Shown here one piece after another: positions 2,067-44,578 of a stretch of DNA of 64,000 bases (position 1 is its first letter; each line of letters opens with the position of its first letter). The translations under genes were made by a program, and so were the position numbers. The notes under the pieces were generated by a model, which was given only the letters and a program-made list of their open reading frames with translations, did not search any database and was not told the DNA's origin. The stretch is taken from assembly GCA_900540175.1 (NCBI GenBank), contig UQFG01000004.1:49335-113334 (forward strand). Direction: 5' to 3'. Origin of the DNA: an uncultured Mollicutes bacterium (lineage in GTDB: Bacteria; Bacillota_I; Bacilli_A; Acholeplasmatales; Anaeroplasmataceae).

Positions 2067-2174
2067 AAAACTTTAAGATAGTCCAGAGAGGCTAACAAGA
2101 AATCAATTATTTGTCATAGGAATGTTACAAATCTAGTTTTCTAGTCTTTTTGGATTGGAAAACTATTTTTTTTC
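2067..2174 (+). promoter_or_regulatory. PyrR-type attenuator leader of the pyr operon
   Basis: The leader contains AGTCCAGAGAGGCT (about 2080-2093), the conserved loop of the PyrR-binding anti-antiterminator known from Bacillus pyr leaders. Downstream is an intrinsic terminator: TAGTTTTC (2134-2141) pairs with GAAAACTA (2158-2165), followed by eight T (2166-2173), just ahead of the pyrB ribosome site. AAAACT (2067-2072) can pair with AGTTTT (2135-2140) as a candidate antiterminator. By analogy, PyrR with UMP would free the terminator when pyrimidines are plentiful. No pyrR lies in this window, so it must be encoded elsewhere. Confidence 0.85.
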
Positions 2175-2188
2175 GGAGGAAAAAGAAG

Positions 2189-3061
2189 ATGAACGGTTTG
2201 TTGACGTTAACAGATTTGACAACAGAAAAAATGCTGGATCTGATCGATTTGGCTTTAGAAATGAAAAAAGGGTTGAAAATCTCTTATCCCGATAAGAAGA
2301 TGGCAACTCTTTTTTTTGAAAATTCAACCCGAACGCACTATTCGTTTATTTCGGCCATGCATCAACTGGATATTAAAGTGGTCGACGTGAATACGGCATG
2401 TTCGTCCATCCAAAAAGGCGAAACGCTGTATGATACAGTGCGGACGTTAGAAGCATTGGGAATGGATGGTGTTGTAATCCGTCATCCCCAAGATCAGTAT
2501 TTCAAAGCGTTGGAAAAAATCAAGATTCCGATCTTTAACGGCGGGGACGGTAAAAGCCATCATCCGACGCAAAGTTTATTGGATTTGATGACCATTTATG
2601 AAGAATTCGGTCATTTTGAAGGACTTCGGTGTTGTATCATCGGCGATATTGCCCATTCGCGGGTGGCCCATACCAATATTGAAGTGATGAAACGGTTGAA
2701 CATGGAGGTTTTCATTTCCGGTCCGAAAGAATTTGATGACGGATGTGCTCCGTTTATTCCTTTTGAAGAAGCGCTTTTAACCAGTGATGTCGTGATGCTG
2801 CTTCGGATTCAATTCGAACGTCACGAAAAAAAGATGAATCTCAGCAAAGAAGAATACCATCAAGCCTTCGGTTTAACGGAACAAAACGTATCTAAGATGA
2901 AAGAAAATGCCATTATCTTGCATCCGGCACCGGTCAATCGCGGCATTGAGATAGCCGATGCGGTGGTTGAATGTGCTAAAAGTCGAATTTACCGACAAAT
3001 GGAAAACGGCGTCTGGATCCGCATGGCGGTTCTTTCGAGGGGATTGGAAGGAAAATTATGA
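2189..3061 (+). CDS. pyrB: Aspartate carbamoyltransferase catalytic subunit
   Basis: Joins carbamoyl phosphate and aspartate to carbamoyl aspartate, the committed step of UMP synthesis. The 290-residue protein has the carbamoyl-phosphate site FFENSTRTHYSF near its N-terminus, the KGETLYDTV loop, and the C-terminal HPAPVNRGIEI of the family. The start is the ATG at 2189, preceded by CGGAGGA at a good distance; an upstream in-frame start lies inside the attenuator terminator and is unlikely. It is the first gene of the operon and overlaps pyrC by ATGA. No regulatory pyrI is present, as usual in Bacillota. Confidence 0.95.
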   Translation: MNGLLTLTDLTTEKMLDLIDLALEMKKGLKISYPDKKMATLFFENSTRTHYSFISAMHQLDIKVVDVNTACSSIQKGETLYDTVRTLEALGMDGVVIRHPQDQYFKALEKIKIPIFNGGDGKSHHPTQSLLDLMTIYEEFGHFEGLRCCIIGDIAHSRVAHTNIEVMKRLNMEVFISGPKEFDDGCAPFIPFEEALLTSDVVMLLRIQFERHEKKMNLSKEEYHQAFGLTEQNVSKMKENAIILHPAPVNRGIEIADAVVECAKSRIYRQMENGVWIRMAVLSRGLEGKL

Positions 3062-4272
3062 TTACGATTCAAAACGGTTGGATTATAGAAAACAATCAAT
3101 TGGTTCAAAAAGATATATGGATTGATGATGGAATCCTTCTTCGAGTTGGTCGGGATCTGCCACCCAAAGGAGAAGTTTTGGATGCTTCCGGTTGTTTGGT
3201 GATGCCGGGTGGAACCGATGTGCATGTGCATTTGCGGCAACCCGGTTTTGATTGGAAAGAAACCATTCGAAGTGGGACGATGGCTGCGGCCAAAGGTGGA
3301 ATCACCAGTGTTATGGCCATGCCGAATTTGATTCCGTGTCCGGATTGTAAAGAACATCTGCAAAGGGAATTGGACTGGATCCAAAAAGATGCCGTGGTTC
3401 ATGTTTATCCGTATGGTGCGGTAACGGTCCGTCAAGAAGGAACGCATCTTTCGGATATTGCATCTTTAAAAGATTTTGTTTTGGCTTTATCCGATGACGG
3501 AATGGGCATTCAAGACATGGCTTTATTGGAACAAGCGATGATGCTTTGCAAAAAGTACGATTTATTGATTGCTTCGCATGCCGAAGATAAAAAAGGCGGT
3601 CAAAGTAAAGAAGGCGAATATGTTGCCGTTGCAAGAGAAATTGAGTTGGCTAAAAAAATCGGATGTCGTTATCATTTTTGTCATCTTTCGACCAAAGAAG
3701 CATTGGAGATGGTCCGGCAAGCCCACATCGAAGGTTATACCAATATCACGTGCGAGGTTACGCCACATCATTTGTTTTTAAACGAGGAAATGATTGAAGA
3801 CGGCAATTGGAAAATGAATCCGCCGCTACGCTTAGAAGAAGACAGAATGCATACCGTTTCAGCCCTGTTGGATCAAACGGCATGTTGTGTTGCTTCGGAT
3901 CATGCTCCGCATACCGAAGAAGAAAAAAATCGTCCGTATGAAAAATGTTTAAACGGCATTATCGGTCTTGAAACGATGATTCCACTGGTGTATACGGAAC
4001 TGATTCATTCTAAGAAAGCTTCTTTGGACGACTTGATTAGGTGGTTTGTCGATGCGCCGAGAAAGTTATTCGGGTTGGATGAACGCAAAATCGAGGAAGG
4101 TTATCCGGCTGATTTGGCCGTATTGGATATTACGCATGAAAGAGTTTTTCAAAAAGATGAGATTCTGTCGATGGGAAAAAACAGTCCGTTTATCGGGCGA
4201 AAATTATACGGCTTTGCCATCTATACCTTGGTAGACGGAAAAATAGTATATCGGAGGAAAGAAAGATCATGA
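3058..4272 (+). CDS. pyrC: Dihydroorotase, class I
   Basis: Cyclises carbamoyl aspartate to dihydroorotate. The 404-residue protein shows the metal-binding HVHLRQPG (HxH), SDDGMG at the position of the bridging Asp of class I enzymes, SHAEDKK, and ASDHAPHT near the C-terminal third, all typical of the amidohydrolase fold. It overlaps the end of pyrB and the start of carA by 4 nt each, indicating tight translational coupling. Nothing looks degenerate. Confidence 0.95.
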   Translation: MITIQNGWIIENNQLVQKDIWIDDGILLRVGRDLPPKGEVLDASGCLVMPGGTDVHVHLRQPGFDWKETIRSGTMAAAKGGITSVMAMPNLIPCPDCKEHLQRELDWIQKDAVVHVYPYGAVTVRQEGTHLSDIASLKDFVLALSDDGMGIQDMALLEQAMMLCKKYDLLIASHAEDKKGGQSKEGEYVAVAREIELAKKIGCRYHFCHLSTKEALEMVRQAHIEGYTNITCEVTPHHLFLNEEMIEDGNWKMNPPLRLEEDRMHTVSALLDQTACCVASDHAPHTEEEKNRPYEKCLNGIIGLETMIPLVYTELIHSKKASLDDLIRWFVDAPRKLFGLDERKIEEGYPADLAVLDITHERVFQKDEILSMGKNSPFIGRKLYGFAIYTLVDGKIVYRRKERS

Positions 4273-5357
4273 AAAGAAAATTGGTATTGGAAAACGGTCT
4301 TGTTTTTAAAGGCATCGGCTTTGGCAGTATGCAAGAAGCAGTGGCCGTATTGGAATTGAATTATGCAATGGTCGGATATCAGGAAATATTATCCGATCCG
4401 GCCTCTTACAACAAAATGATTTGCATGACGTATCCGCTTATCGGGAATTACGGTGTAACGGACGAAGATTTTGAATCGAAAAAATTAACGGTTCGGGCTT
4501 TGGTTGTTCGGCAGTATCACGATGAACCGTCGAATTTTCGTTCAACCGAAACGTTACAGGAAGCGATGGAAGAAAACGGAGTGGTCGGGATCGCGGAAGT
4601 AGATACTCGAATGATTGCCCGCATCATTCGGCAAGAAGGAAGAATGAAAGCCTTGATTTGCGATGAAGAAGTACCGTTTGAGCAATCTATGGAAAAGTTG
4701 GCGAGTTACCAAGACCAACCTTCTTTTAATCAATCCCTTGCTGCCGGTAAAATGCGTCAGGTAAGAACGGCCAATCCGCTTTATACGGTGGTGGTTGTCG
4801 ATTACGGTGTTCCAAATTCGTTAATTCGACAACTGAATCGACTGGGATGTAATGTTGTGATCGTAGGTGTAAATACCGATATTCAAACTATTTTAGATGT
4901 CAAACCGGACGGCATCATCTTATCGGATGGTCCAACGAAAGCATCTGACGATGTGGAATGGATTCGGCAACTGTGTCGGAAAAAGCAAACCGTTCCGCTT
5001 CTTGGAATCGGCTTGGGTGCTTGCAAGATTGCCTTGGCATTCGGTGCATCGATTCAGCCTTTAACCAGTGGAAAGCATGGCTCGAATCATCCGGTTCTAA
5101 GGTTGGATCAGGATAAAATATGGATCGCCACGCAAAACAGCAATGTCGGAGTTTGCGAGGATGACCTTCAAAAAACATCGTTGACGATAACGCATCGCGA
5201 TTTGACCGACCATTCGGTTTTGGGATTTTCCGAAACGGATCAGATGATTTACGGACTTTTGTTTGATCCGGATTGGTCGAATGAACCGAAAGAAGAATGG
5301 TGGGCTGCAGTAAGCAAAAGAAAGGGTGAACACAATGCCAAAAAGAACCGATATTAA
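4269..5357 (+). CDS. carA: Carbamoyl-phosphate synthase small subunit with a catalytically dead glutaminase site
   Basis: The N-terminal half is a recognisable CarA (MVGYQEILSDP, TYPLIGNYGV, DTRMIARIIR) and the length (362 residues) is normal. The C-terminal class I glutamine amidotransferase domain keeps the fold landmarks GSNHPV and THRDL, but the nucleophile elbow GICLGHQ reads GIGLGACK: Gly248 stands where the catalytic Cys belongs. The catalytic His and Glu of HPEAS are replaced in FDPDWS (Asp333, Asp335), NGPGDP reads DGPTKA, and QNHG reads QNSN. By family knowledge such a subunit could not hydrolyse glutamine. The frame is intact and embedded in the operon, so it is not simple decay. 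I infer a structural role with ammonia as the nitrogen donor. Confidence 0.9.
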   Translation: MKRKLVLENGLVFKGIGFGSMQEAVAVLELNYAMVGYQEILSDPASYNKMICMTYPLIGNYGVTDEDFESKKLTVRALVVRQYHDEPSNFRSTETLQEAMEENGVVGIAEVDTRMIARIIRQEGRMKALICDEEVPFEQSMEKLASYQDQPSFNQSLAAGKMRQVRTANPLYTVVVVDYGVPNSLIRQLNRLGCNVVIVGVNTDIQTILDVKPDGIILSDGPTKASDDVEWIRQLCRKKQTVPLLGIGLGACKIALAFGASIQPLTSGKHGSNHPVLRLDQDKIWIATQNSNVGVCEDDLQKTSLTITHRDLTDHSVLGFSETDQMIYGLLFDPDWSNEPKEEWWAAVSKRKGEHNAKKNRY

Positions 5358-8300
5358 AAAGATCCTAGTGATCGGAAGCGGTCCGATCGTCATCGGGCAG
5401 GCAGCGGAATTCGATTATGCCGGAACGCAAGCTTGTCTGGCTTTAAAAGAAGAAGGCTATGAGGTCGTGTTGGTCAATTCCAATCCGGCGACGATTATGA
5501 CCGATACGAAAATAGCCGATAAAATTTATATGGAACCGTTGGATTTGGAACATGTGGCTAAAATCATACGGTATGAACGTCCCGATGGGTTGATTTGTTC
5601 GATCGGCGGTCAAACTGGACTGAATCTGGGAATGCAACTTTATAAAAAAGGTATCTTGGATGAATGTGGTGTCAAACTGCTCGGGACCGGTTATGAGGCC
5701 ATTTGCCGGGCCGAAGATCGGGAATTGTTTAAAGAACTTTGTCAGGAAATTCATGAACCGGTCATCGAAAGTCAGATAGCAACGACTTTGGAACAGATTC
5801 TTGCCGCTGCCGATTCGATCGGCTATCCGGTTATTTTAAGACCGGCATTCACACTAGGTGGAACTGGCGGTGGCTTTGCCGATTGCCGGGAAGAATTGCT
5901 GCCACTGGCCAAAAATGCCCTTAAGATGTCTCCGGTATCACAGGTTTTGGTTGAAAAATCCATCCGGGGATACAAAGAAATCGAGTTTGAGGTTTTACGG
6001 GATCAAAACGATACGGCGATTTCCGTCTGCTGTATGGAAAATGTCGATCCGGTTGGAATTCATACCGGGGACAGTATTGTGGTTGCTCCATCTCAAACGC
6101 TGACGTATCCTGAATATCAAATGCTTAGAAAGGCGGCCCTTAAAATCATTCGGGCATTGAAATTAGAAGGCGGTTGCAATATTCAGTTTGCTTTGGATCC
6201 GTATTCGTTTCAATATTATGTCATTGAAGTCAATCCGCGGGTATCGCGTTCTTCGGCATTGGCTTCCAAAGCCTCCGGGTATCCGATTGCGCGCGTGTCG
6301 GCTAAAATCGCCTGTGGTTTACGGCTCGATGAAATTCAGTTGTCTATGAAACCGGCTTGTTTCGAACCGACGCTGGATTATGTGGTTGTAAAGGTTCCTC
6401 GTTTTCCGTTTGATAAATTTGCCGATGCCAATCGGAGTTTGTCGACGCAGATGAAAGCAACCGGCGAAGTTATGTCGATCGGAAGAACTTTTGAGGAAGC
6501 TTTGTTAAAAGCGATCCGTTCGTTGGAATGCGGCATCGACCATTTGGAATTGGCTTTTTTGAAAGATAAAAGCCCGGCTTTTTTGATGGATTTGATTCGC
6601 CGGCATACCGATGAACGGTTGTATGCGATTGCCGAGGCACTTCGAAAAGGTGTTCGAGCAGAAGACATCTACGATGAAACCAAAATCGACCGGTTCTTCT
6701 TATCTAAAATCCAGACGATCCTGCAGGTAGAAGAACAACTGAAAAACAATCCCTGGGATAAAGAAATTTTCTTGACGGCCAAACGATGCGGTTTTTCCGA
6801 TTCTTATATTGCCCGTTCTTACGGTGTTTCTTTTCAAGAGATCTACGATTATAGAAGAAAAAATAAGCTTTATCCCGTTTATAAAATGATCGATTCTTGT
6901 GCCAATGAATTTGCAGGGAATATTCCGTACTTTTATTCCACGTATGAATGGGAAAACGAATCCAAACGAAGCTTGAGAAAAAAGATTGTGGTGTTGGGAT
7001 CGGGGCCCATTCGAATCGGGCAGGGAATCGAATTCGATTATACGACCGTTCATGCGATTTGGGCGATTCAGGAGGCCGGATTTGAGGCGATTATCATCAA
7101 TAATAATCCGGAAACCGTTTCAACCGATTATACCGTTTCGGATAAACTTTATTTTGAACCGTTGACTTTTGAAGATGTGATGAATGTGATCGATTTGGAA
7201 CAACCCGAAGGAGTCATCGTGGCTTTAGGTGGTCAAACCGCAATTGGATTGGCTTCGCTTTTAAGTCAGGCCGGTGTCCGAATTTTCGGATCGTCTTCTG
7301 GCAGTATCGAGTTGGCAGAAGATCGGCAATTGTTTGAAAAAGCGATGGAAGAAATTCAAATTCCCATGCCGAAAGGAAAGGGTGTTTTCGATGTGGCATC
7401 GGCGCTTGCGGTTGCCAAAGAAATTACCTATCCGGTTTTGGTAAGGCCGTCGTTTGTTTTGGGTGGACGGATGATGCATCTTGTGTATGATGAAGAATCG
7501 CTGAAACAAAAAGTCGAAGAGGCCCTACATTTGGACAGTCGGTATCCGGTTTTGATCGATAAATATATTTTGGGACAGGAATGTGAAGTCGATGCGATTT
7601 GCGACGGAAGTGATGTTTTCATTCCGGGAATTATGGAACACATCGAACGAACAGGTGTTCATAGCGGGGACAGTATGTCGGTTTATCCGCCTTATTCGTT
7701 GAAAGATGAAGTGATCGCAACCATTGTAGAACAGACAAGGAAGATCGGGTTGAAATTACAGATGATCGGACTTTATAATATTCAATTCATTATCGATGCC
7801 AACAAGCAGGTTTATGTCATTGAAGTCAATCCGAGGTCCAGTCGGACGGTTCCCTTTTTAGCCAAAGCTACCGGTCTTCCGATTGCCAATCTTGCAACCA
7901 AAGTTATGCTTGGCTATTCGCTCAAACAATTGGGATATGTCGGACTTTATCCGAATCGGAAACGGTGGTATGTCAAATCTCCGACGTTCTCTTTCAGTAA
8001 AATTTCGGGAATGGATGTTGTTTTATCACCGGAAATGAAATCGACCGGAGAAGCCATCGGATATGATTATTCGTTGAATCGGGCCCTTTATAAATCGTTG
8101 CGGGCTTCCGGTGTTCGGGTGTCTAATTACGGAACGGTTTTGGCGACCATCGCCGATGCGGATAAGCAAGCGGCCCTACCACTCATCAAACGGTTTTACG
8201 ATTTGGGATTTAATATTGAAGCAACCAAAGGAACGGCGTTGTTTTTGAAAGAAAACGGTATTAAAACCAGAATCAAGAAAAAAATTTCCGAAGGAAGCGA

Positions 8301-8508
8301 CGAAATTTTGGAATCCATTAAAAAAGGCTATGTGACCTATGTGATCAATACGGCAAGTGAACGCGATTCGTTAATGGATGGTAAAATCATCCGTCGGGCC
8401 GCAATTGACAATAATGTGGCTGTATTTACATGCTTGGATACGGTTTTGGTACTTTTAAATGTGTTGGAAGAAATGACCATGCGCATTTCTTTGATCGATG
8501 AGGAGTAA
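5335..8508 (+). CDS. carB: Carbamoyl-phosphate synthase large subunit
   Basis: Makes carbamoyl phosphate from bicarbonate, ammonia and two ATP. At 1057 residues it is full length, with the two homologous ATP-grasp halves: KILVIGSGPIVIGQ near the N-terminus and KIVVLGSGPIRIGQ near residue 555. FEVNPRVSRSSALASKA-type and EVNPRSSRTVPFLAKAT metal/ATP motifs occur in the respective halves, and a C-terminal MGS-like allosteric domain follows (KGTALFLKENGI). The start is taken at ATG 5335 (MPKRTDIKK, standard for the family) rather than GTG 5326. It overlaps carA by 23 nt. No obvious loss of key residues is seen, in contrast to its CarA partner. Confidence 0.96.
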   Translation: MPKRTDIKKILVIGSGPIVIGQAAEFDYAGTQACLALKEEGYEVVLVNSNPATIMTDTKIADKIYMEPLDLEHVAKIIRYERPDGLICSIGGQTGLNLGMQLYKKGILDECGVKLLGTGYEAICRAEDRELFKELCQEIHEPVIESQIATTLEQILAAADSIGYPVILRPAFTLGGTGGGFADCREELLPLAKNALKMSPVSQVLVEKSIRGYKEIEFEVLRDQNDTAISVCCMENVDPVGIHTGDSIVVAPSQTLTYPEYQMLRKAALKIIRALKLEGGCNIQFALDPYSFQYYVIEVNPRVSRSSALASKASGYPIARVSAKIACGLRLDEIQLSMKPACFEPTLDYVVVKVPRFPFDKFADANRSLSTQMKATGEVMSIGRTFEEALLKAIRSLECGIDHLELAFLKDKSPAFLMDLIRRHTDERLYAIAEALRKGVRAEDIYDETKIDRFFLSKIQTILQVEEQLKNNPWDKEIFLTAKRCGFSDSYIARSYGVSFQEIYDYRRKNKLYPVYKMIDSCANEFAGNIPYFYSTYEWENESKRSLRKKIVVLGSGPIRIGQGIEFDYTTVHAIWAIQEAGFEAIIINNNPETVSTDYTVSDKLYFEPLTFEDVMNVIDLEQPEGVIVALGGQTAIGLASLLSQAGVRIFGSSSGSIELAEDRQLFEKAMEEIQIPMPKGKGVFDVASALAVAKEITYPVLVRPSFVLGGRMMHLVYDEESLKQKVEEALHLDSRYPVLIDKYILGQECEVDAICDGSDVFIPGIMEHIERTGVHSGDSMSVYPPYSLKDEVIATIVEQTRKIGLKLQMIGLYNIQFIIDANKQVYVIEVNPRSSRTVPFLAKATGLPIANLATKVMLGYSLKQLGYVGLYPNRKRWYVKSPTFSFSKISGMDVVLSPEMKSTGEAIGYDYSLNRALYKSLRASGVRVSNYGTVLATIADADKQAALPLIKRFYDLGFNIEATKGTALFLKENGIKTRIKKKISEGSDEILESIKKGYVTYVINTASERDSLMDGKIIRRAAIDNNVAVFTCLDTVLVLLNVLEEMTMRISLIDEE

Positions 8509-9240
8509 ATGATGAAACAAGTTCAATTGACTGTTGTAAAACAAGAAGCCGTCACGGATTCGGTGTATCGTTTGGTTTTGGAAGGTCCGGTCGATGGCTT
8601 TTTGCCGGGACAGTTTATCAACATCAAAATAGAAGATACTTATTTAAGACGACCGTTTTCCATTTGTCGCGCCACTTCGTCTGCCATCGAACTGTTGTAT
8701 CAAGTGGTTGGACAGGGAACCAAAAAATTAGCGACGTATCCAAACGGAAAACAATTGGATTGCCTGATCGGACTGGGAAATGGTTTTGATACCGGTAAAA
8801 GTCAAAAGCCGTTACTGATTGCCGGCGGAATCGGAATTGCACCGCTACTTGGACTGGCCGAAACGTTTTTGAAAGAAGGAAAAGAAGTCATTCTTGTTTA
8901 CGGTGCCAAGACCGCTTCTGAATTGATTTTGGAAGATAATCGGATTTTGCCGCAAACATGTTATCTTTGTACCGAAGACGGTAGTATGGGATTTAAAGGA
9001 AATCCGGTTGAATTTTTGAAAACACAGGATCTGGATTTTGACTGGTATTACGCGTGCGGACCGATTCCGATGTTAAAAGCTATCAAAGAGTGGAGCGTTC
9101 AAGGAGATCTTTCTTTAGAGGCCAGAATGGGTTGCGGATTCGGAGCTTGCATGGGTTGTTCGATTCAAACGACTTCCGGTTGGAAAAGAATCTGCAAAGA
9201 AGGACCAGTTCTAACGGCAAGGGAGGTGTTGTTCGAATGA
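8509..9240 (+). CDS. pyrK: Dihydroorotate dehydrogenase B, electron-transfer subunit
   Basis: Transfers electrons from dihydroorotate oxidation to NAD+ through FAD and a [2Fe-2S] cluster. The 243-residue protein has the FAD motif LRRPFSIC, a nucleotide-binding GGIGIAPLLGLAE segment, YYACGPIPML, and a C-terminal Cys cluster (MGCGFGACMGC, then RICKEGPV) for the iron-sulfur centre. Two adjacent ATGs (8509 and 8512) follow GAGGAG; either may be used. It overlaps pyrD by 4 nt, matching the heterotetrameric PyrDB-PyrK enzyme. Confidence 0.94.
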   Translation: MMKQVQLTVVKQEAVTDSVYRLVLEGPVDGFLPGQFINIKIEDTYLRRPFSICRATSSAIELLYQVVGQGTKKLATYPNGKQLDCLIGLGNGFDTGKSQKPLLIAGGIGIAPLLGLAETFLKEGKEVILVYGAKTASELILEDNRILPQTCYLCTEDGSMGFKGNPVEFLKTQDLDFDWYYACGPIPMLKAIKEWSVQGDLSLEARMGCGFGACMGCSIQTTSGWKRICKEGPVLTAREVLFE

Positions 9241-10145
9241 ATACGGAAATCACGTTTTTAGGTAAAACATTTAAAAATCCCGTTATTCCCGCTTCTGGTA
9301 CGTTTGGATTCGGGTATGAGTTTGCCAAGTTTTACGATATCAATATCTTGGGAAGCATCGCCATCAAAGGAACCACTCGTACTGCCCGTTACGGAAATGA
9401 ACTTCCTCGGATTGCTGATTGCCCGGCCGGTCTGCTCAATGCGATCGGTTTGCAAAATCCGGGGGTTGAAGCTGTGATTCATCAGGAATTAAACGAACTG
9501 AATCGGGTTTATGCCGGTCAGGTTATTGCCAATGTCGGCGGTCACAGTCTACAAGAGTATGTGGATACGGTTGTCCAGTTCAATACTTGCGAAAAAGTTT
9601 TTGCGATTGAACTGAATATTTCCTGTCCGAACGTCAAAGAAGGGGGCATGGCGTTTGGAATCGATCCTTTGGTTGCTTATGATTTAGTCAAACAAGTTCG
9701 ATCGGTTTGTCAAAAACCGTTGATCGTCAAACTTTCTCCCAATGTAACGGATATTGTTCAGATGGCCAAAGCGGTTGAACAAGGCGGTGCCGATGCGATC
9801 AGTTTAATCAATACGATGGTCGGCATGCGGATTGATCTTAAAAGCGGACAACCGATTTTATCTACGCGCAAAGGCGGTTACAGCGGTCCCGGCATTTATC
9901 CGATCGCGCTTCGAATGGTTTATGATGTATCGCATGCCGTTCGTATTCCGGTTATTGGGATGGGCGGTATTCAAACGGCGTATGATGTATTGGAGATGAT
10001 GTATGCCGGTGCGTCTTTGGTCATGGTCGGATCGCAGAATTTGATCGATCCTTATGCTTGTAAAAAAATTATCGAGGAGTTACCGAAGGTCATGAACGAA
10101 TTTCATATCGAAAATTTAGAAGATATCATTGGGAGGACAAAATGA
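9237..10145 (+). CDS. pyrD: Dihydroorotate dehydrogenase B, catalytic subunit
   Basis: Oxidises dihydroorotate to orotate with FMN. The start is ATG 9237, overlapping the pyrK stop and preceded by GGGAGGTG, giving 302 residues beginning MNTEITFLGKTFKNP. Family signatures are NPVIPASGTFGFGYE, the active-site loop NISCPNVKEGG with the class 1B catalytic Cys, KLSPNVTDI and the FMN-phosphate site GMGGIQTAYD. Together with PyrK it forms the NAD-dependent class 1B enzyme. Confidence 0.95.
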   Translation: MNTEITFLGKTFKNPVIPASGTFGFGYEFAKFYDINILGSIAIKGTTRTARYGNELPRIADCPAGLLNAIGLQNPGVEAVIHQELNELNRVYAGQVIANVGGHSLQEYVDTVVQFNTCEKVFAIELNISCPNVKEGGMAFGIDPLVAYDLVKQVRSVCQKPLIVKLSPNVTDIVQMAKAVEQGGADAISLINTMVGMRIDLKSGQPILSTRKGGYSGPGIYPIALRMVYDVSHAVRIPVIGMGGIQTAYDVLEMMYAGASLVMVGSQNLIDPYACKKIIEELPKVMNEFHIENLEDIIGRTK

Positions 10146-10837
10146 AAAAAGATGTGATTATTGCCTGTGATTTCAAGCAAAAAGAAGATTTGTTTGCGTT
10201 TTTAAAACCTTTTTCGGCATTAAAACTGTATCCTTTTTTAAAAATCGGAATGGAATTGTTTTATAAAGAAGGACCGCAGTTAATCCGCTTGTTAAAAGAA
10301 GAAGGGTATCGTATTTTTTTGGATTTAAAATTGCATGATATTCCCAATACCGTTGAAAAAGCCATGCGCAATTTAGGTGATTTGGGAGTGGATATGGTCA
10401 ATGTTCATGCCGCAGGCGGTATCGCGATGATGAAGGCCGCCAAAAAAGGATTGAAAGAGGGAAAAAACGGACAACATACCAAACTGATTGCCGTAACGGT
10501 TTTGACCTCTCTTTCCGAAGAAATATTAAAAGAAGAATTATCGATCGAAAAAGAAGTATCGGAAGTGGTTGAAAAATATGCCCAAAATGCCGCTTTAGCC
10601 GGTTTGGATGGTGTTGTTTGCTCCGCTTTGGAAGCCCCGATGGTGGCCCGGATGAATCTTCTTTCGGTAACGCCCGGAATTCGTTTCAAAGAAGACGGCA
10701 ATAATGACCAAAAACGAGTTGCCACACCGGAAGATGCCAAACGGTTCAAGGCGGATTTCATTGTGGTAGGTCGTTCGATTACCGCCCATTCTCATCCGGT
10801 AGAGGCGTATCTTCGTTGTGTAAAGGAGTTTTGTTAA
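10142..10837 (+). CDS. pyrF: Orotidine 5'-phosphate decarboxylase
   Basis: Final step to UMP. The 231-residue TIM-barrel protein carries FLDLKLHDIPNTV, containing the catalytic Asp-x-Lys-x-x-Asp set, and the phosphate-gripping VTPGIRF and VVGRSIT segments. It overlaps pyrD by ATGA and is followed one base later by pyrE. GGGAGGA precedes the ATG. Confidence 0.95.
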   Translation: MKKDVIIACDFKQKEDLFAFLKPFSALKLYPFLKIGMELFYKEGPQLIRLLKEEGYRIFLDLKLHDIPNTVEKAMRNLGDLGVDMVNVHAAGGIAMMKAAKKGLKEGKNGQHTKLIAVTVLTSLSEEILKEELSIEKEVSEVVEKYAQNAALAGLDGVVCSALEAPMVARMNLLSVTPGIRFKEDGNNDQKRVATPEDAKRFKADFIVVGRSITAHSHPVEAYLRCVKEFC

Positions 10838-10838
10838 G

Positions 10839-11477
10839 ATGGATACCAAAAAAAGAATTGCCGAGCATTTATTGAAAATCAAAGCCGTTTTTCTAAGACC
10901 AGAAGAGCCGTTTGTCTGGGCTTCTGGCATTCATTCGCCGATTTACTGCGATAACCGGTTGACTTTGTCGTATGTGGAAACCAGACAAGTGATTGAAGAA
11001 GGATTGGCTCAGTTGATTCGTACGTATTATCCGACGTGCGAAGTGGTGATGGGAACATCAACCGCCGGCATTGCCCATGCGGCTTATGTTTCCGATCGGT
11101 TGAATTTACCGATGGGATATGTTCGATCCAAAGAAAAAGATCATGGTAGAGGAAACCAAATCGAGGGATTGGTCCCGAAAGGTAAAAATGTCGTTGTAAT
11201 CGAAGATTTGATTTCAACTGCCGGTTCGGCGATTGAAGTAGCAGAGGTTTTAAGAAAAGCCGGTGCCAACGTTCTCGGGATTGCTTCCATTTTCACTTAT
11301 CATTTGCAAAAAGGAACGCTTCGTTTAAAAGAAGCCGATTTGATCAATCATTCTTTATGTGATTTTGAAACGTTGGCAGAAGTGGCCAAAGAACAGCATT
11401 ATATATCGGAACGGGAATTGAAAAAGGTACTGAAATTTCAAAAAAATCCGAATGATCCAACTTGGATGGAAGAATAA
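10839..11477 (+). CDS. pyrE: Orotate phosphoribosyltransferase
   Basis: Adds phosphoribose from PRPP to orotate; with pyrF it completes UMP synthesis. The 212-residue protein has the PRPP-binding loop VVVIEDLISTAGSAIEVA (one Ala where Gly is common), YVRSKEKDHGRGNQIEG for the flexible active-site loop, and FVWASGIHSPIYCDNR at the N-terminal hood. It is the last gene of the operon and is followed by a strong intrinsic terminator. Confidence 0.95.
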   Translation: MDTKKRIAEHLLKIKAVFLRPEEPFVWASGIHSPIYCDNRLTLSYVETRQVIEEGLAQLIRTYYPTCEVVMGTSTAGIAHAAYVSDRLNLPMGYVRSKEKDHGRGNQIEGLVPKGKNVVVIEDLISTAGSAIEVAEVLRKAGANVLGIASIFTYHLQKGTLRLKEADLINHSLCDFETLAEVAKEQHYISERELKKVLKFQKNPNDPTWMEE

Positions 11478-41484: not shown

Positions 41485-42705
41485 ATGAATGACTATAGGT
41501 ACTGGCTTTGTATGAACGAAAAAAAACTAAGGGGATGTTTTTTCTCGGATCCCGATTTCGGCTTTTATTTTTTCACAGAACCAACGTCGCTGGATCTTTC
41601 TTGGAACCGATTCGTGGATTTGACGATTCATCAGCAAAAAGTAACGGTTTGTTCCAATTCCACCAATCATTTTGAAGTTTATAGGTTGGAACAAAACGGA
41701 CAAAAAGTATATGCGTTCGCATTGGTGGAAAAGTGGCTGATGCCCACGCTCCAATATTTGACATTTGATGATCTATCTAGTTCCGGAATCGGACTTAACA
41801 GCGAGGAGTTACTGAAATTGTTTGCCCAAATCTGTATTTTACCGACCGGGAATTTTGTGGTCGGAAATGTTCAAGATTATATTACGGTGGTGGAACGGAT
41901 GATTCGTCCTTATCCGAATCAAGAATTCTTTTTCCGCGGACATTATAGTTATAAATATGCATTGATTCCATCGCTTTACCGCAAAAAACAGTACTATGAA
42001 CATGAAAATTTCATGTACATGGATTTTAAAACACAGTTTTATAACGAATTGTCGGATAAAAAGTATATTGAAATTTTAACGACCATGCAACATTATAAAA
42101 TGCCGACTCGGCTATTGGATACAACATCCAACCCGCTAGTCGCTTTATACATGGCGTGTGATAAACCGGTCGGTGATAAAAAAGGAACGCTTCCCATCGG
42201 GGAGGTAATTGTGATGCATGAGGAACGTAAGAATGTCAAATATTCCGATAGCAACGCGGTTACTTTGTTAGCCAGTCTGGCCGTACTGGAAACCAATTAC
42301 AAACAGGAACTTTACGAAAAAATCCAAGAAGCGATTGTCCGAAACGATCCGACCATTTATCAGAATTGCATTGCCTTTAAACGGTTCGTTGCCGAAGTGA
42401 AATCGGAGTTGCCGGTTTTTGATTTGGATTTTTTCAGCCCGGACGTTCTCTTAAAACCGCGACATGTCAAGGTGGGAATGATCAACGAACGCATCATTGC
42501 CCAATCGGGAAGTTTTATTCTGTTCGGCTTGTGTGATTACAATACCGGTGAATATACAAAATTAAATACGGTTCATCGTCAACGAATCTTTGTCGTTGAT
42601 AAAGAGAAAATTTCGAATCAGTTATCGATGCTCAATATCAATATGAGTACGATGTATCCGGATAAAGACCATACTTCCAGAACCATTACAAAAACATATG
42701 ATTAA
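41485..42705 (+). CDS. FRG-domain protein
   Basis: The 406-residue protein has in its middle FFFRGHYSYKYALIPSLYRK (from about residue 148) and MQHYKMPTRLLDTTSNPLVALYMACD, the two hallmarks of the FRG domain. This is a widespread domain of unknown biochemical activity, often in variable genome regions. No membrane segment or other known domain is evident; the N-terminal 140 residues are unrecognised. The start at ATG 41485 follows AGGAGG by eight bases. It lies between comEC and asnB, with only weak promoter candidates. Confidence 0.8.
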   Translation: MNDYRYWLCMNEKKLRGCFFSDPDFGFYFFTEPTSLDLSWNRFVDLTIHQQKVTVCSNSTNHFEVYRLEQNGQKVYAFALVEKWLMPTLQYLTFDDLSSSGIGLNSEELLKLFAQICILPTGNFVVGNVQDYITVVERMIRPYPNQEFFFRGHYSYKYALIPSLYRKKQYYEHENFMYMDFKTQFYNELSDKKYIEILTTMQHYKMPTRLLDTTSNPLVALYMACDKPVGDKKGTLPIGEVIVMHEERKNVKYSDSNAVTLLASLAVLETNYKQELYEKIQEAIVRNDPTIYQNCIAFKRFVAEVKSELPVFDLDFFSPDVLLKPRHVKVGMINERIIAQSGSFILFGLCDYNTGEYTKLNTVHRQRIFVVDKEKISNQLSMLNINMSTMYPDKDHTSRTITKTYD

Positions 42706-42708
42706 TAA

Positions 42709-42782
42709 AAATACCGCACATTTCACATTTTCGCTTTCTTTTCATACCTTAATAGAGGAAGTGATATGTTTGTGCGGTATTT
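42709..42782 (+). promoter_or_regulatory. 12-bp perfect inverted repeat spanning the asnB start
   Basis: AAATACCGCACA (42709-42720) and TGTGCGGTATTT (42771-42782) are perfectly complementary, separated by 50 nt that include the ribosome site. The right arm covers the TTG start and the first codons (Cys-Gly-Ile) of asnB, so folding would hide the start. There is no T run after it, arguing against a terminator. Confidence 0.6.
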
Positions 42783-44578
42783 GTTATAAAAGCAGTTTTT
42801 TCAATCCGACTGATAAAAATGAATTTATAAAAGCCTGTGATTTGCTCAATCACCGCGGTCCGGATGATGAAGGATACCTCTTTACCAAAAATCATTCGTT
42901 CGGTCACAAACGATTGGCCATTCGGGAAGTTTTAAAAGCCCGGCAACCGATGAGTTTGCTGAATTGTCATTTGGTGTATAATGGGGAACTTTACAATGGG
43001 GAAGAATTGGAAGAAAAATTGCATCAGTTAGGAGAATCGTTGGAATTTGCCAGCGATACGCTGTTGTTATTGAAACTTTTGATGGGTTTTGATACGACGA
43101 TTTTAAAAGAATTAAACGGTATCTTCAGTTTTGTTTATACCAAAGACGATCGTGTTTTGATTGTAAGGGATATGTTTGGTGTCAAACCGCTCTTTTATAC
43201 CATGATCGGGCAGGATATTATGGTGTCATCTGAAATCAAGTCGTTATTGTCGTATCGAAAACAAGCCGTTGTCGATCGGGAAGGGTTATGCGAGTTATTG
43301 GGAATGGGGCCGTCTCATAGTGAAGGAAAAACCATTTACAAAGGTATTTACGAAGTAAAACCCGGACACTATCTGACCTTTGATCAAGAAAACGGATTAA
43401 AGGATCACTGTTATTATCAATTGACGGCGCGTCCTTTTCATTTGAGTTACGATGAAACGGTTCAGGAAGTCAGACGTCTTTTGGATCGGTCGATCAAGCG
43501 CCAAATGATTTCCGATGTCGGTGTTTCCTGCTTCCTTTCCGGGGGATTGGATTCCAGCATTATTTCGACGATTGTTGCCAAAAACAAGGATCATTTGGAT
43601 ACGTACAGCATTGATTATGAAGATAACCGAAAAGATTTCGTTCCCAATCAATTTGAAGTCACATCCGATCGTGATTTTACAAAAAAAGTCAGTGAGGCGA
43701 TCGGTTCGAACCAGCATGATATTTTGATTGACAATCAAACGCTGGTAGATGGATTAAAACAAGCCGTTTTGTTTAAAGACGCTCCGGGAATGACCGATAT
43801 TGATTCTTCCATGTACTATTTGGCTCAGCAGATCGCCAAAACGCACAAGGTCAGTTTATCTGGGGAATGTGCCGATGAAATTTTCGGCGGTTATCCGTGG
43901 TTTTATAAAAAAGAAAAACGGATGACGAGTTTTCCTTGGATTCGCAATTTAGATGACAGAGAGAATTTCTTGCAACCGAAGTGGAAAGAAAAACTGCATT
44001 TGAAAGAATACGTTCAACAAGAATATACCAAAGCTTTGAATGAAACGCCGGTTTTGCCGACGGATACAAAGACGACCGTTCGCCAACGTCAGTTATCGTA
44101 CATCAATATGAGATATTTTATGACCAACTTACTGGATCGCAAAGATCGGATGACGATGGGGGCTTCTTTGGAAGTACGGGTTCCTTTTTGCGATAAAGAT
44201 TTGGTAGACTTCTTGTATAATGTTCCGTTTCAGTATAAGTATCGTTCTAAAGTCGAAAAGAAATTATTAAGGGATGCCTATGAAGGAACGGTCATAAAAG
44301 AAGTGGTTGACCGAAAAAAAAGCCCTTATCCCAAAAGCAATTCCAAAAAGTATCATCAAATGGTTGTCGGTTTATTGGAAGAAGTTTTAAAAAACCAAGA
44401 CAGTATTTTATATCGGCTGTTTGATATCACAAAAATTAGACATTTAATGGATACCGATGAGGAATTGAGCGTTCCTTGGTACGGGCAACTGATGCGGAAA
44501 ACGGCTTTTTTAGCCTATCTTTATCAAATCGATTATTGGTATCGAACCTATCATATCGAAATAGAAGGAGAGTTGTAA
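42770..44578 (+). CDS. asnB: Asparagine synthetase (glutamine-hydrolysing)
   Basis: Converts aspartate to asparagine with glutamine-derived ammonia. The 602-residue protein needs Cys at position 2 after Met removal. A TTG at 42770 gives Met-Cys-Gly-Ile-Cys, whereas earlier starts would bury the catalytic Cys; GAGGAAGTGA lies upstream. The glutaminase domain has NHRGPDDEG and LVYNGELYNGEE, the synthetase domain the PP-loop CFLSGGLDSS, SGECADEIFGGYP and LEVRVPFCD. The next gene overlaps by one base. Unlike CarA, its glutaminase site is intact. Confidence 0.93.
   Translation: MCGICYKSSFFNPTDKNEFIKACDLLNHRGPDDEGYLFTKNHSFGHKRLAIREVLKARQPMSLLNCHLVYNGELYNGEELEEKLHQLGESLEFASDTLLLLKLLMGFDTTILKELNGIFSFVYTKDDRVLIVRDMFGVKPLFYTMIGQDIMVSSEIKSLLSYRKQAVVDREGLCELLGMGPSHSEGKTIYKGIYEVKPGHYLTFDQENGLKDHCYYQLTARPFHLSYDETVQEVRRLLDRSIKRQMISDVGVSCFLSGGLDSSIISTIVAKNKDHLDTYSIDYEDNRKDFVPNQFEVTSDRDFTKKVSEAIGSNQHDILIDNQTLVDGLKQAVLFKDAPGMTDIDSSMYYLAQQIAKTHKVSLSGECADEIFGGYPWFYKKEKRMTSFPWIRNLDDRENFLQPKWKEKLHLKEYVQQEYTKALNETPVLPTDTKTTVRQRQLSYINMRYFMTNLLDRKDRMTMGASLEVRVPFCDKDLVDFLYNVPFQYKYRSKVEKKLLRDAYEGTVIKEVVDRKKSPYPKSNSKKYHQMVVGLLEEVLKNQDSILYRLFDITKIRHLMDTDEELSVPWYGQLMRKTAFLAYLYQIDYWYRTYHIEIEGEL

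Follow-up and report, generated by a model that had tools for sequence, protein, structure and literature searches.

A pyrimidine-operon carbamoyl-phosphate synthase whose small subunit has lost its glutaminase residues, and its probable use of free ammonia

How carbamoyl phosphate is supplied to pyrimidine synthesis when the subunit expected to hydrolyse glutamine has lost the residues for doing so is the question raised by a carA gene in a stretch of 64,000 nucleotides (the window) from an uncultured Mollicutes bacterium (GenBank assembly GCA_900540175.1, contig UQFG01000004.1). By the textbook rule, bacterial carbamoyl-phosphate synthases (CPSases) use glutamine. The operon in question, ordered pyrBC-carAB-pyrKDFE, very probably encodes an ammonia-dependent enzyme instead, with CarA kept as a structural partner of CarB, in parallel to the vertebrate carbamoyl-phosphate synthetase I (CPS I), a likeness already drawn in an earlier note on this DNA and here judged apt.

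The loss is evident in alignments to E. coli CarA, in which Gly248 (codon GGC), Asp333 and Asp335 stand opposite Cys269, His353 and Glu355, and TQNSNVG is read at residue 288. The earlier note had declared the glutaminase site dead and had read the motifs GIGLGACK, DGPTKA, QNSN and DPDWS; the replacement of Cys, His and Glu is confirmed, and the motif readings are correct in every detail checked. The frame is uninterrupted and free of internal stops, its 5' end lying inside the end of pyrC and its 3' end overlapping the start of carB, and its position as an intact gene within a pyrimidine operon, also part of that description, is borne out by open reading frame (ORF), Pfam and NCBIfam matches (Table 1). 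Scores lie over the cut-offs for CPSase_sm_chain (PF00988, 143 bits), followed by the glutamine amidotransferase domain GATase (PF00117, 75 bits), as well as for the general small-subunit model PRK12838 (307 bits, cut-off 221); TIGR01368, the 'glutamine-hydrolyzing' family, gives 282 bits, under its cut-off of 307. By domains, fold and partner the window CarA is a CPSase small subunit and, judged by its residues, not a glutamine-hydrolysing one. A sequencing or assembly error is unlikely, given the Cys-less relatives described below and because the identical protein stands at the head of a cluster of 32 members formed at 90% identity. A rebuilt ammonium site formed by the acidic residues was considered and dropped, positions 353 and 355 varying without pattern.

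Homologue alignment, the check that the earlier note had named, finds the changes in relatives, and their absence there, which that note would have taken as a refutation, is thus not borne out: among the best 120 homologues listed, 74 (the window's cluster included) are without Cys, 10 keep Cys without the full triad and 36 keep Cys, His and Glu. When CarA of Erysipelothrix sp. HDW6C served as the query of a second search, 17 of the best 120 proteins were Cys-less, including Erysipelothrix and Clostridium mediterraneense names, and Cys-less CarA was also read in metagenome-assembled genomes (MAGs) titled Clostridia, Alistipes and Rikenellaceae (65 of 80 loci read there); a contig scan of genomes with the window protein alone as query returned no match. 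Prevalence is best taken from a 395-genome sample of a single class, where a CarA match (E <= 1e-40) occurs in 65 genomes and active sites were read in all 65: a Cys-less copy is present in 15, 13 of them without an intact one, and 50 keep Cys269 and His353, with Asp for Glu355 in 3/50. By contrast, the 121 non-redundant CarA proteins (56 intact, 65 Cys-less, the latter called dead below) placed in a quick tree were gathered mostly with dead CarA as bait, so that 65/121 is no prevalence, as 15/65 is. This tree was built with the active-site columns left out and contains long branches, that of the window included. At least 11 switches of the Cys state are counted on it, at least 5 of them forced by starred branches; the 11 are losses only if Cys is ancestral. 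Of the 65 dead proteins, 46 have Gly in place of Cys269, 16 have Ser, 2 have Ala and one has Asp; the nucleophile elbow being a strained turn, Gly may be favoured there. As far as these sequences go, the loss is a recurrent trait that reaches beyond the oddity of one bacterium, a breadth that the earlier note could not see. The TIGR01368 score was rejected as a detector of dead CarA, a Ser-type dead copy scoring 431 and many Cys-less proteins passing, and for this reason active sites were judged by reading the sequences. The database name 'glutamine-hydrolyzing' stands on at least three CarA proteins without the catalytic Cys (P0027, P0084 and P0103), for which it is unlikely to hold.

Loss of a catalytic site may mark a gene on its way to becoming a pseudogene, with CarB working alone with ammonia and the residual CarA having no role. 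In keeping with such decay, the window's GATase domain is 30-37% identical to those of five relatives, compared with 72-77% for CarB (four compared), and CarA is very degenerate in Erysipelothrix sp. HDW6C and in one further genome (G021). Conservation across the 65 dead proteins is graded, with a mean retention, over positions conserved in intact CarA, of 87% at 39 in the N-domain, 58% at 16 catalytic, glutamine-binding and tunnel positions and 72% at the 40 remaining GATase positions. The ratio of nonsynonymous to synonymous substitution rates (dN/dS) has a median of 0.155 in the GATase domain versus 0.097 in the N-domain over 169 usable dead pairs, and the faster evolution of the former would again suit decay; the corresponding medians for intact pairs are 0.18 and 0.187. 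However, in the 25 closest dead pairs, which overlap in many cases, GATase dN/dS is only 0.04-0.14, the frames remain open and overlap carB, and the N-domain is largely kept. In the relatives, then, the dead GATase domain is relaxed against its own N-domain yet far from neutral, and pseudogene status is rejected for them on dN/dS and open frames. The AlphaFold model of the window CarA is confident (pLDDT 88, pTM 0.86), its top matches in the Protein Data Bank being E. coli CarA chains, the C269S mutant first, and then human CPS1 (TMq 0.88 to 1c30_B, an E. coli CarA, and 0.81-0.85 to human 5dot/5dou). Decay is accordingly held to be highly improbable; no search was made for pyr operons lacking any carA.

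The partner subunit CarB is intact. Among 81 long CarB sequences, the 51 with dead partners keep 98.6% of the 334 columns conserved in the 30 with intact partners, gate residues 232 and 314 being kept in 51/51, and the nearest CarB outside the window's own cluster is 81% identical. Domains, predicted model and conserved CarB columns together uphold the earlier claim of a retained CarA fold beside an intact CarB. On the CarA side of the ammonia tunnel, position 293 is Gly or Ala in 54/56 intact versus 25/65 dead proteins and Ser in the window; Gln at this position of human CPS1 blocks the old tunnel, according to PMC4655335. Position 359 is Gly in 26/65 and position 360 Pro in 25/65 dead proteins, in a gappy part of the alignment. 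Residues of the former glutamine pocket vary among dead lineages, with Glu, Gln, Leu, Asn and others at 273 and Asn, His, Asp, Tyr, Glu and others at 353.

These data also bear on the possibility that CarA has been recruited for regulation or ligand sensing (of glutamine or another amino acid, for example), ammonia being the donor. That a catalytically dead domain is under purifying selection does call for some non-catalytic function, but the pocket residues at 273 and 353 differ by lineage and no shared new ligand site is visible, leaving a dedicated sensory role with very little probability.

Two substitutions in CarB (E. coli numbering) were seen in dead-partnered sequences: Arg265, which belongs to a known tunnel-wall mutant, is replaced by Lys or Ala in 13/51, and Phe536 is changed in 23/51, both counts being 0/30 in intact-partnered ones.

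Continued use of glutamine could be sustained by another nucleophile, by a stand-alone glutaminase docked on CarB, or by an intact CarA from elsewhere pairing with CarB. For the first route, the window offers Cys252 (codon TGC) close to the elbow, which the earlier note had already thought an unlikely substitute; it is rejected as a replacement nucleophile, because among the 65 Cys-less proteins the window alone has a Cys in that column. His, Glu, tunnel position 293 and position 359 are often changed as well. Borrowing would be possible in some relatives, since a CarA-specific domain search of 50 genomes with dead CarA found an intact-type copy too in 16, one of which (G082) has a second CarA that is truncated at a contig end ahead of the active site and was classed as intact-type from the N-domain. 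Against this, the remaining 34 are without one, including Erysipelothrix sp. HDW6C (G421), whose single contig of 2,357,642 bases holds a single CarA domain match, a dead one. Moreover, in the 15 mixed genomes where both copies were read, 14 have a carB alongside the intact carA as its own partner, and in the remaining one (G110) the contig breaks off. Glutamine-dependent operation thus appears improbable, if marginally less so than decay or a sensory role.

In preference to these alternatives, an ammonia-dependent enzyme is proposed, for which we infer the in vivo donor, its route of entry and the ATP advantage. Free NH3 would enter CarB directly or via an altered CarA interface and react with carboxyphosphate, the resulting carbamate then being phosphorylated as usual, and CarA would be retained since CarB depends on it to assemble, to stay stable or to close the tunnel. 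Where ammonia is abundant, one ATP, that of glutamine synthesis, would be saved per carbamoyl phosphate, and the separate glutamine-dependent carAB of some relatives, found in two lineages beside nitrogen-assimilation genes, would serve during shortage.

The arrangement of the two copies in the 15 mixed genomes gives this proposal its context. The dead copy lies beside pyrB or pyrC in 15/15, and the intact carAB lies among nitrogen-assimilation genes in four, in the orders GSIII-amt/PII-asnB-pyrG-carA-carB (G465; GSIII, type III glutamine synthetase), GSIII-amt-asnB-purF-carA-carB-purA (G023 and G027) and pyrG-gltB-gltD-carA-carB-purA (G018). The four represent two lineages, G018, G023 and G027 being close kin by their dead CarA on the tree.

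Furthermore, gene content was compared in 77 genomes chosen from the matches and not at random, comprising 16 two-copy (G082 included), 34 dead-only and 27 intact-only genomes. The ammonium transporter Amt is present in 14/16, 2/34 and 9/27 of these, respectively (Fisher p = 1.4e-8 within dead-CarA genomes, ignoring kinship), and CTP synthase (PF06418) in 15/16, 9/34 and 25/27, the search for the latter failing in 25/34 dead-only versus 2/27 intact-only genomes. Incompleteness of the MAGs is an unlikely cause of the missing Amt and PyrG, recA, the completeness control, being found in 15/16, 34/34 and 26/27. The two dead-only genomes with Amt (G009 and G092) are close kin of two-copy genomes, and their second copy may simply be missed. 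Arginine synthesis was considered as a simple reason for a second carA and is suggestive but insufficient, argG occurring in 15/16, 17/34 and 10/27. A general loss of glutamine use was rejected for the dead-only genomes G007 and G195, PurL keeping its catalytic Cys in both and GuaA in G195; together with glutamine synthetase in 29/34 dead-only genomes and asnB in the window, these kept sites indicate that glutamine is not simply absent.

PurF shows a comparable tendency. Searched for in 40 genomes, it is canonical in 24 and a low-scoring variant in 18, with both forms in 8 and neither in 6. The variant reads M-G/S-G-F-F-G/A where the canonical protein has Cys1 (18/18 read), keeps the PRPP (phosphoribosyl pyrophosphate) loop in 16/16 checked, falls under the NCBIfam purF cut-off in the three tested and adjoins other purine genes in G007, G195, G002 and G477; judged by these features, it is possibly an ammonia-using PurF. 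Loci of the variant include L243:6662-8077, L245:6390-7814, 14 further loci, L221 and L223. A broader and more tentative reading would be an 'ammonia-first' nucleotide metabolism, in which glutaminase activity was shed from the pyr-operon CarA and the PurF variant, the glutamine-dependent carAB, purF, pyrG and asnB were gathered beside GSIII, Amt/PII and glutamate synthase as a set for nitrogen shortage, and lineages never short of ammonia dropped the set, often with CTP synthase. Somewhat doubtful from the start, this reading was judged slightly less likely still because canonical PurF stands alone in 16/40 genomes, many with dead CarA only, and because the variant also occurs in G005, a genome with intact CarA, which makes the link between CarA and PurF a loose one. 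If it held, the lost CTP synthase would imply an unknown ammonia-using CTP route or cytidine salvage.

Several observations weigh against ammonia dependence of the window's enzyme or against its physiological setting. The main gap is kinetic, ammonia use being a deduction from sequence: for E. coli CPSase, ammonia serves as a substrate only when its concentration is very high (PMC6245113), and a better affinity for ammonia must therefore be assumed. The window CarA sits on a long branch of the tree with no close pair there for dN/dS, and its own genome may hold a second carA elsewhere than in the window, the species being known here from the 64,000-nucleotide stretch and the second-copy counts coming from other genomes. 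Such a copy would not be fatal, since 16 relatives have an intact-type copy elsewhere and the dead one in the pyr operon. Across the mixed genomes, the intact carAB of G294 directly follows the pyr operon, and in 10/15 the surroundings of the intact carAB yielded no gene of the nitrogen reference set, the contig being short in several of these. Finally, 18/27 intact-only genomes are without Amt and still keep intact CarA, and the association of Amt with a second copy is not significant over 5 independent contrasts (3 agree, 0-1 oppose, p 0.25 or more), nor is that of PyrG in a phylogeny-aware test.

Among known systems, the E. coli enzyme shares the fold (TMq 0.88) and subunit organization of the window's CarAB, as do the C269S, G359F and tunnel-blocked E. 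coli mutants. The C269S mutant has reportedly lost glutamine use and kept ammonia use. These mutants are engineered, whereas the window's enzyme is natural, and wild-type E. coli CPSase needs glutamine, named as its physiological donor in a review. In tunnel-blocked or perforated E. coli mutants, glutamine is no longer used but ammonia still is, according to a reference title in PMC6245113 and the excerpt of PMC4655335. As described in that excerpt, vertebrate CPS I (human CPS1, 5dot/5dou) resembles the window in having lost the glutaminase Cys (Ser294 in human) and kept the GATase-like domain. Its altered tunnel position 293 (Gln in human) may have a counterpart in the window's Ser, and it takes ammonia from outside, as the window's CarAB would; frog CPS1 keeps the catalytic triad (PMC4655335). 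CPS I is, however, one fused, mitochondrial chain activated by N-acetylglutamate and feeding the urea cycle, whereas two overlapping bacterial genes in a pyrimidine operon are present here, and the window's CarAB would resemble CPS I in its working without being a member. Alcolapia CPS III shows a convergent shift from glutamine towards ammonia, but it keeps the catalytic triad and has lost a glutamine-binding residue (excerpt of PMC7657897), whereas the window has lost the triad. Pyrococcus offers prokaryotic carbamoyl phosphate without a glutamine-dependent CPSase (excerpt of PMC6245113), its enzyme being a carbamate kinase and not CarAB, which the window keeps in full. No publication on bacterial enzymes of this kind was found in an open-access library, most subscription papers lying outside the search.

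Taken across mostly uncultured bacteria, the repeated loss suggests that pyrimidine synthesis is started from free ammonia, contrary to the rule cited at the outset. If so, these operons would amount to many natural repeats of the change from glutamine to ammonia familiar from the vertebrate urea cycle, with separate subunits open to testing in E. coli, and nucleotide synthesis would be tied directly to ammonia supply in bacteria many of which come from gut metagenomes.

Table 1. Genes, domains and motifs of the pyrimidine operon (window coordinates).
Feature	Coordinates	Strand	Details and basis
pyrB, aspartate carbamoyltransferase	2150..3061	+	NCBIfam
pyrC, dihydroorotase	3058..4272	+	NCBIfam
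carA, CarA-like subunit without glutaminase residues	4269..5357	+	362 aa; ORF, Pfam, NCBIfam, alignment
N-terminal CPSase small-chain domain PF00988, residues 5-130	4281..4658	+	Pfam
GATase class-I domain PF00117, residues 175-341, catalytic residues replaced	4791..5291	+	Pfam and alignment
DGPTKA (usual NGPGDP/NGPGNP), residue 220	4926..4943	+	sequence and homologues
GIGLGACK, residue 246, nucleophile elbow, Gly in place of Cys269	5004..5027	+	alignment
GKHGSNHPV, tunnel position 293 occupied by Ser (E. coli Gly, human CPS1 Gln)	5070..5096	+	alignment; PMC4655335 (excerpt)
LFDPDWSNEP, residue 331; Asp for His353 and Glu355; Glu aligned to position 359	5259..5288	+	alignment
carB	5335..8508	+	1057 aa if begun at ATG 5335 (GTG 5326 opens the listed ORF); two ATP-grasp halves present; overlap with carA
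pyrK, dihydroorotate dehydrogenase electron transfer subunit	8509..9240	+	best NCBIfam matches under curated cut-offs
pyrD, dihydroorotate dehydrogenase	9234..10145	+	NCBIfam; start inferred from onset of family match
pyrF, orotidine monophosphate (OMP) decarboxylase	10142..10837	+	NCBIfam
pyrE, orotate phosphoribosyltransferase	10839..11477	+	NCBIfam

Additional arrangements were observed around GSIII genes of the relatives. Next to a GSIII gene, the dead-only genome G376 holds a short remnant of a second carA, an N-terminal piece interrupted by a stop (L187, about 6153-6308). G471, G476 and G478 each have two carA genes, both without Cys269, one of Ser-type beside pyrC, the other of Gly-type adjoining GSIII (L182, L185, L317, L318, L143 and L144); no carB match was found next to the Gly-type in the stretch read. 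Nine nitrogen clusters (L249, L250, L251, L254, L255, L257, L258, L184 and L320) combine GSIII with asnB and, in most cases, with a glutamine-synthetase-like protein of about 400 aa, pyrG, amt, purF or glutamate synthase genes, along with a 200-aa protein that is perhaps a response regulator, a guess from its sequence.

Elsewhere in the window, positions 494-2017 form a single frame with a TcdA-like N-terminal part, either an unusual fusion or a pair joined by a frameshift, the rest of which apparently carries what we take to be a patatin-type lipase motif. In the asnB-like gene at 42770-44578, a TTG start would place the class-II catalytic Cys at position 2, a residue that the listed ATG at 42698 would bury.

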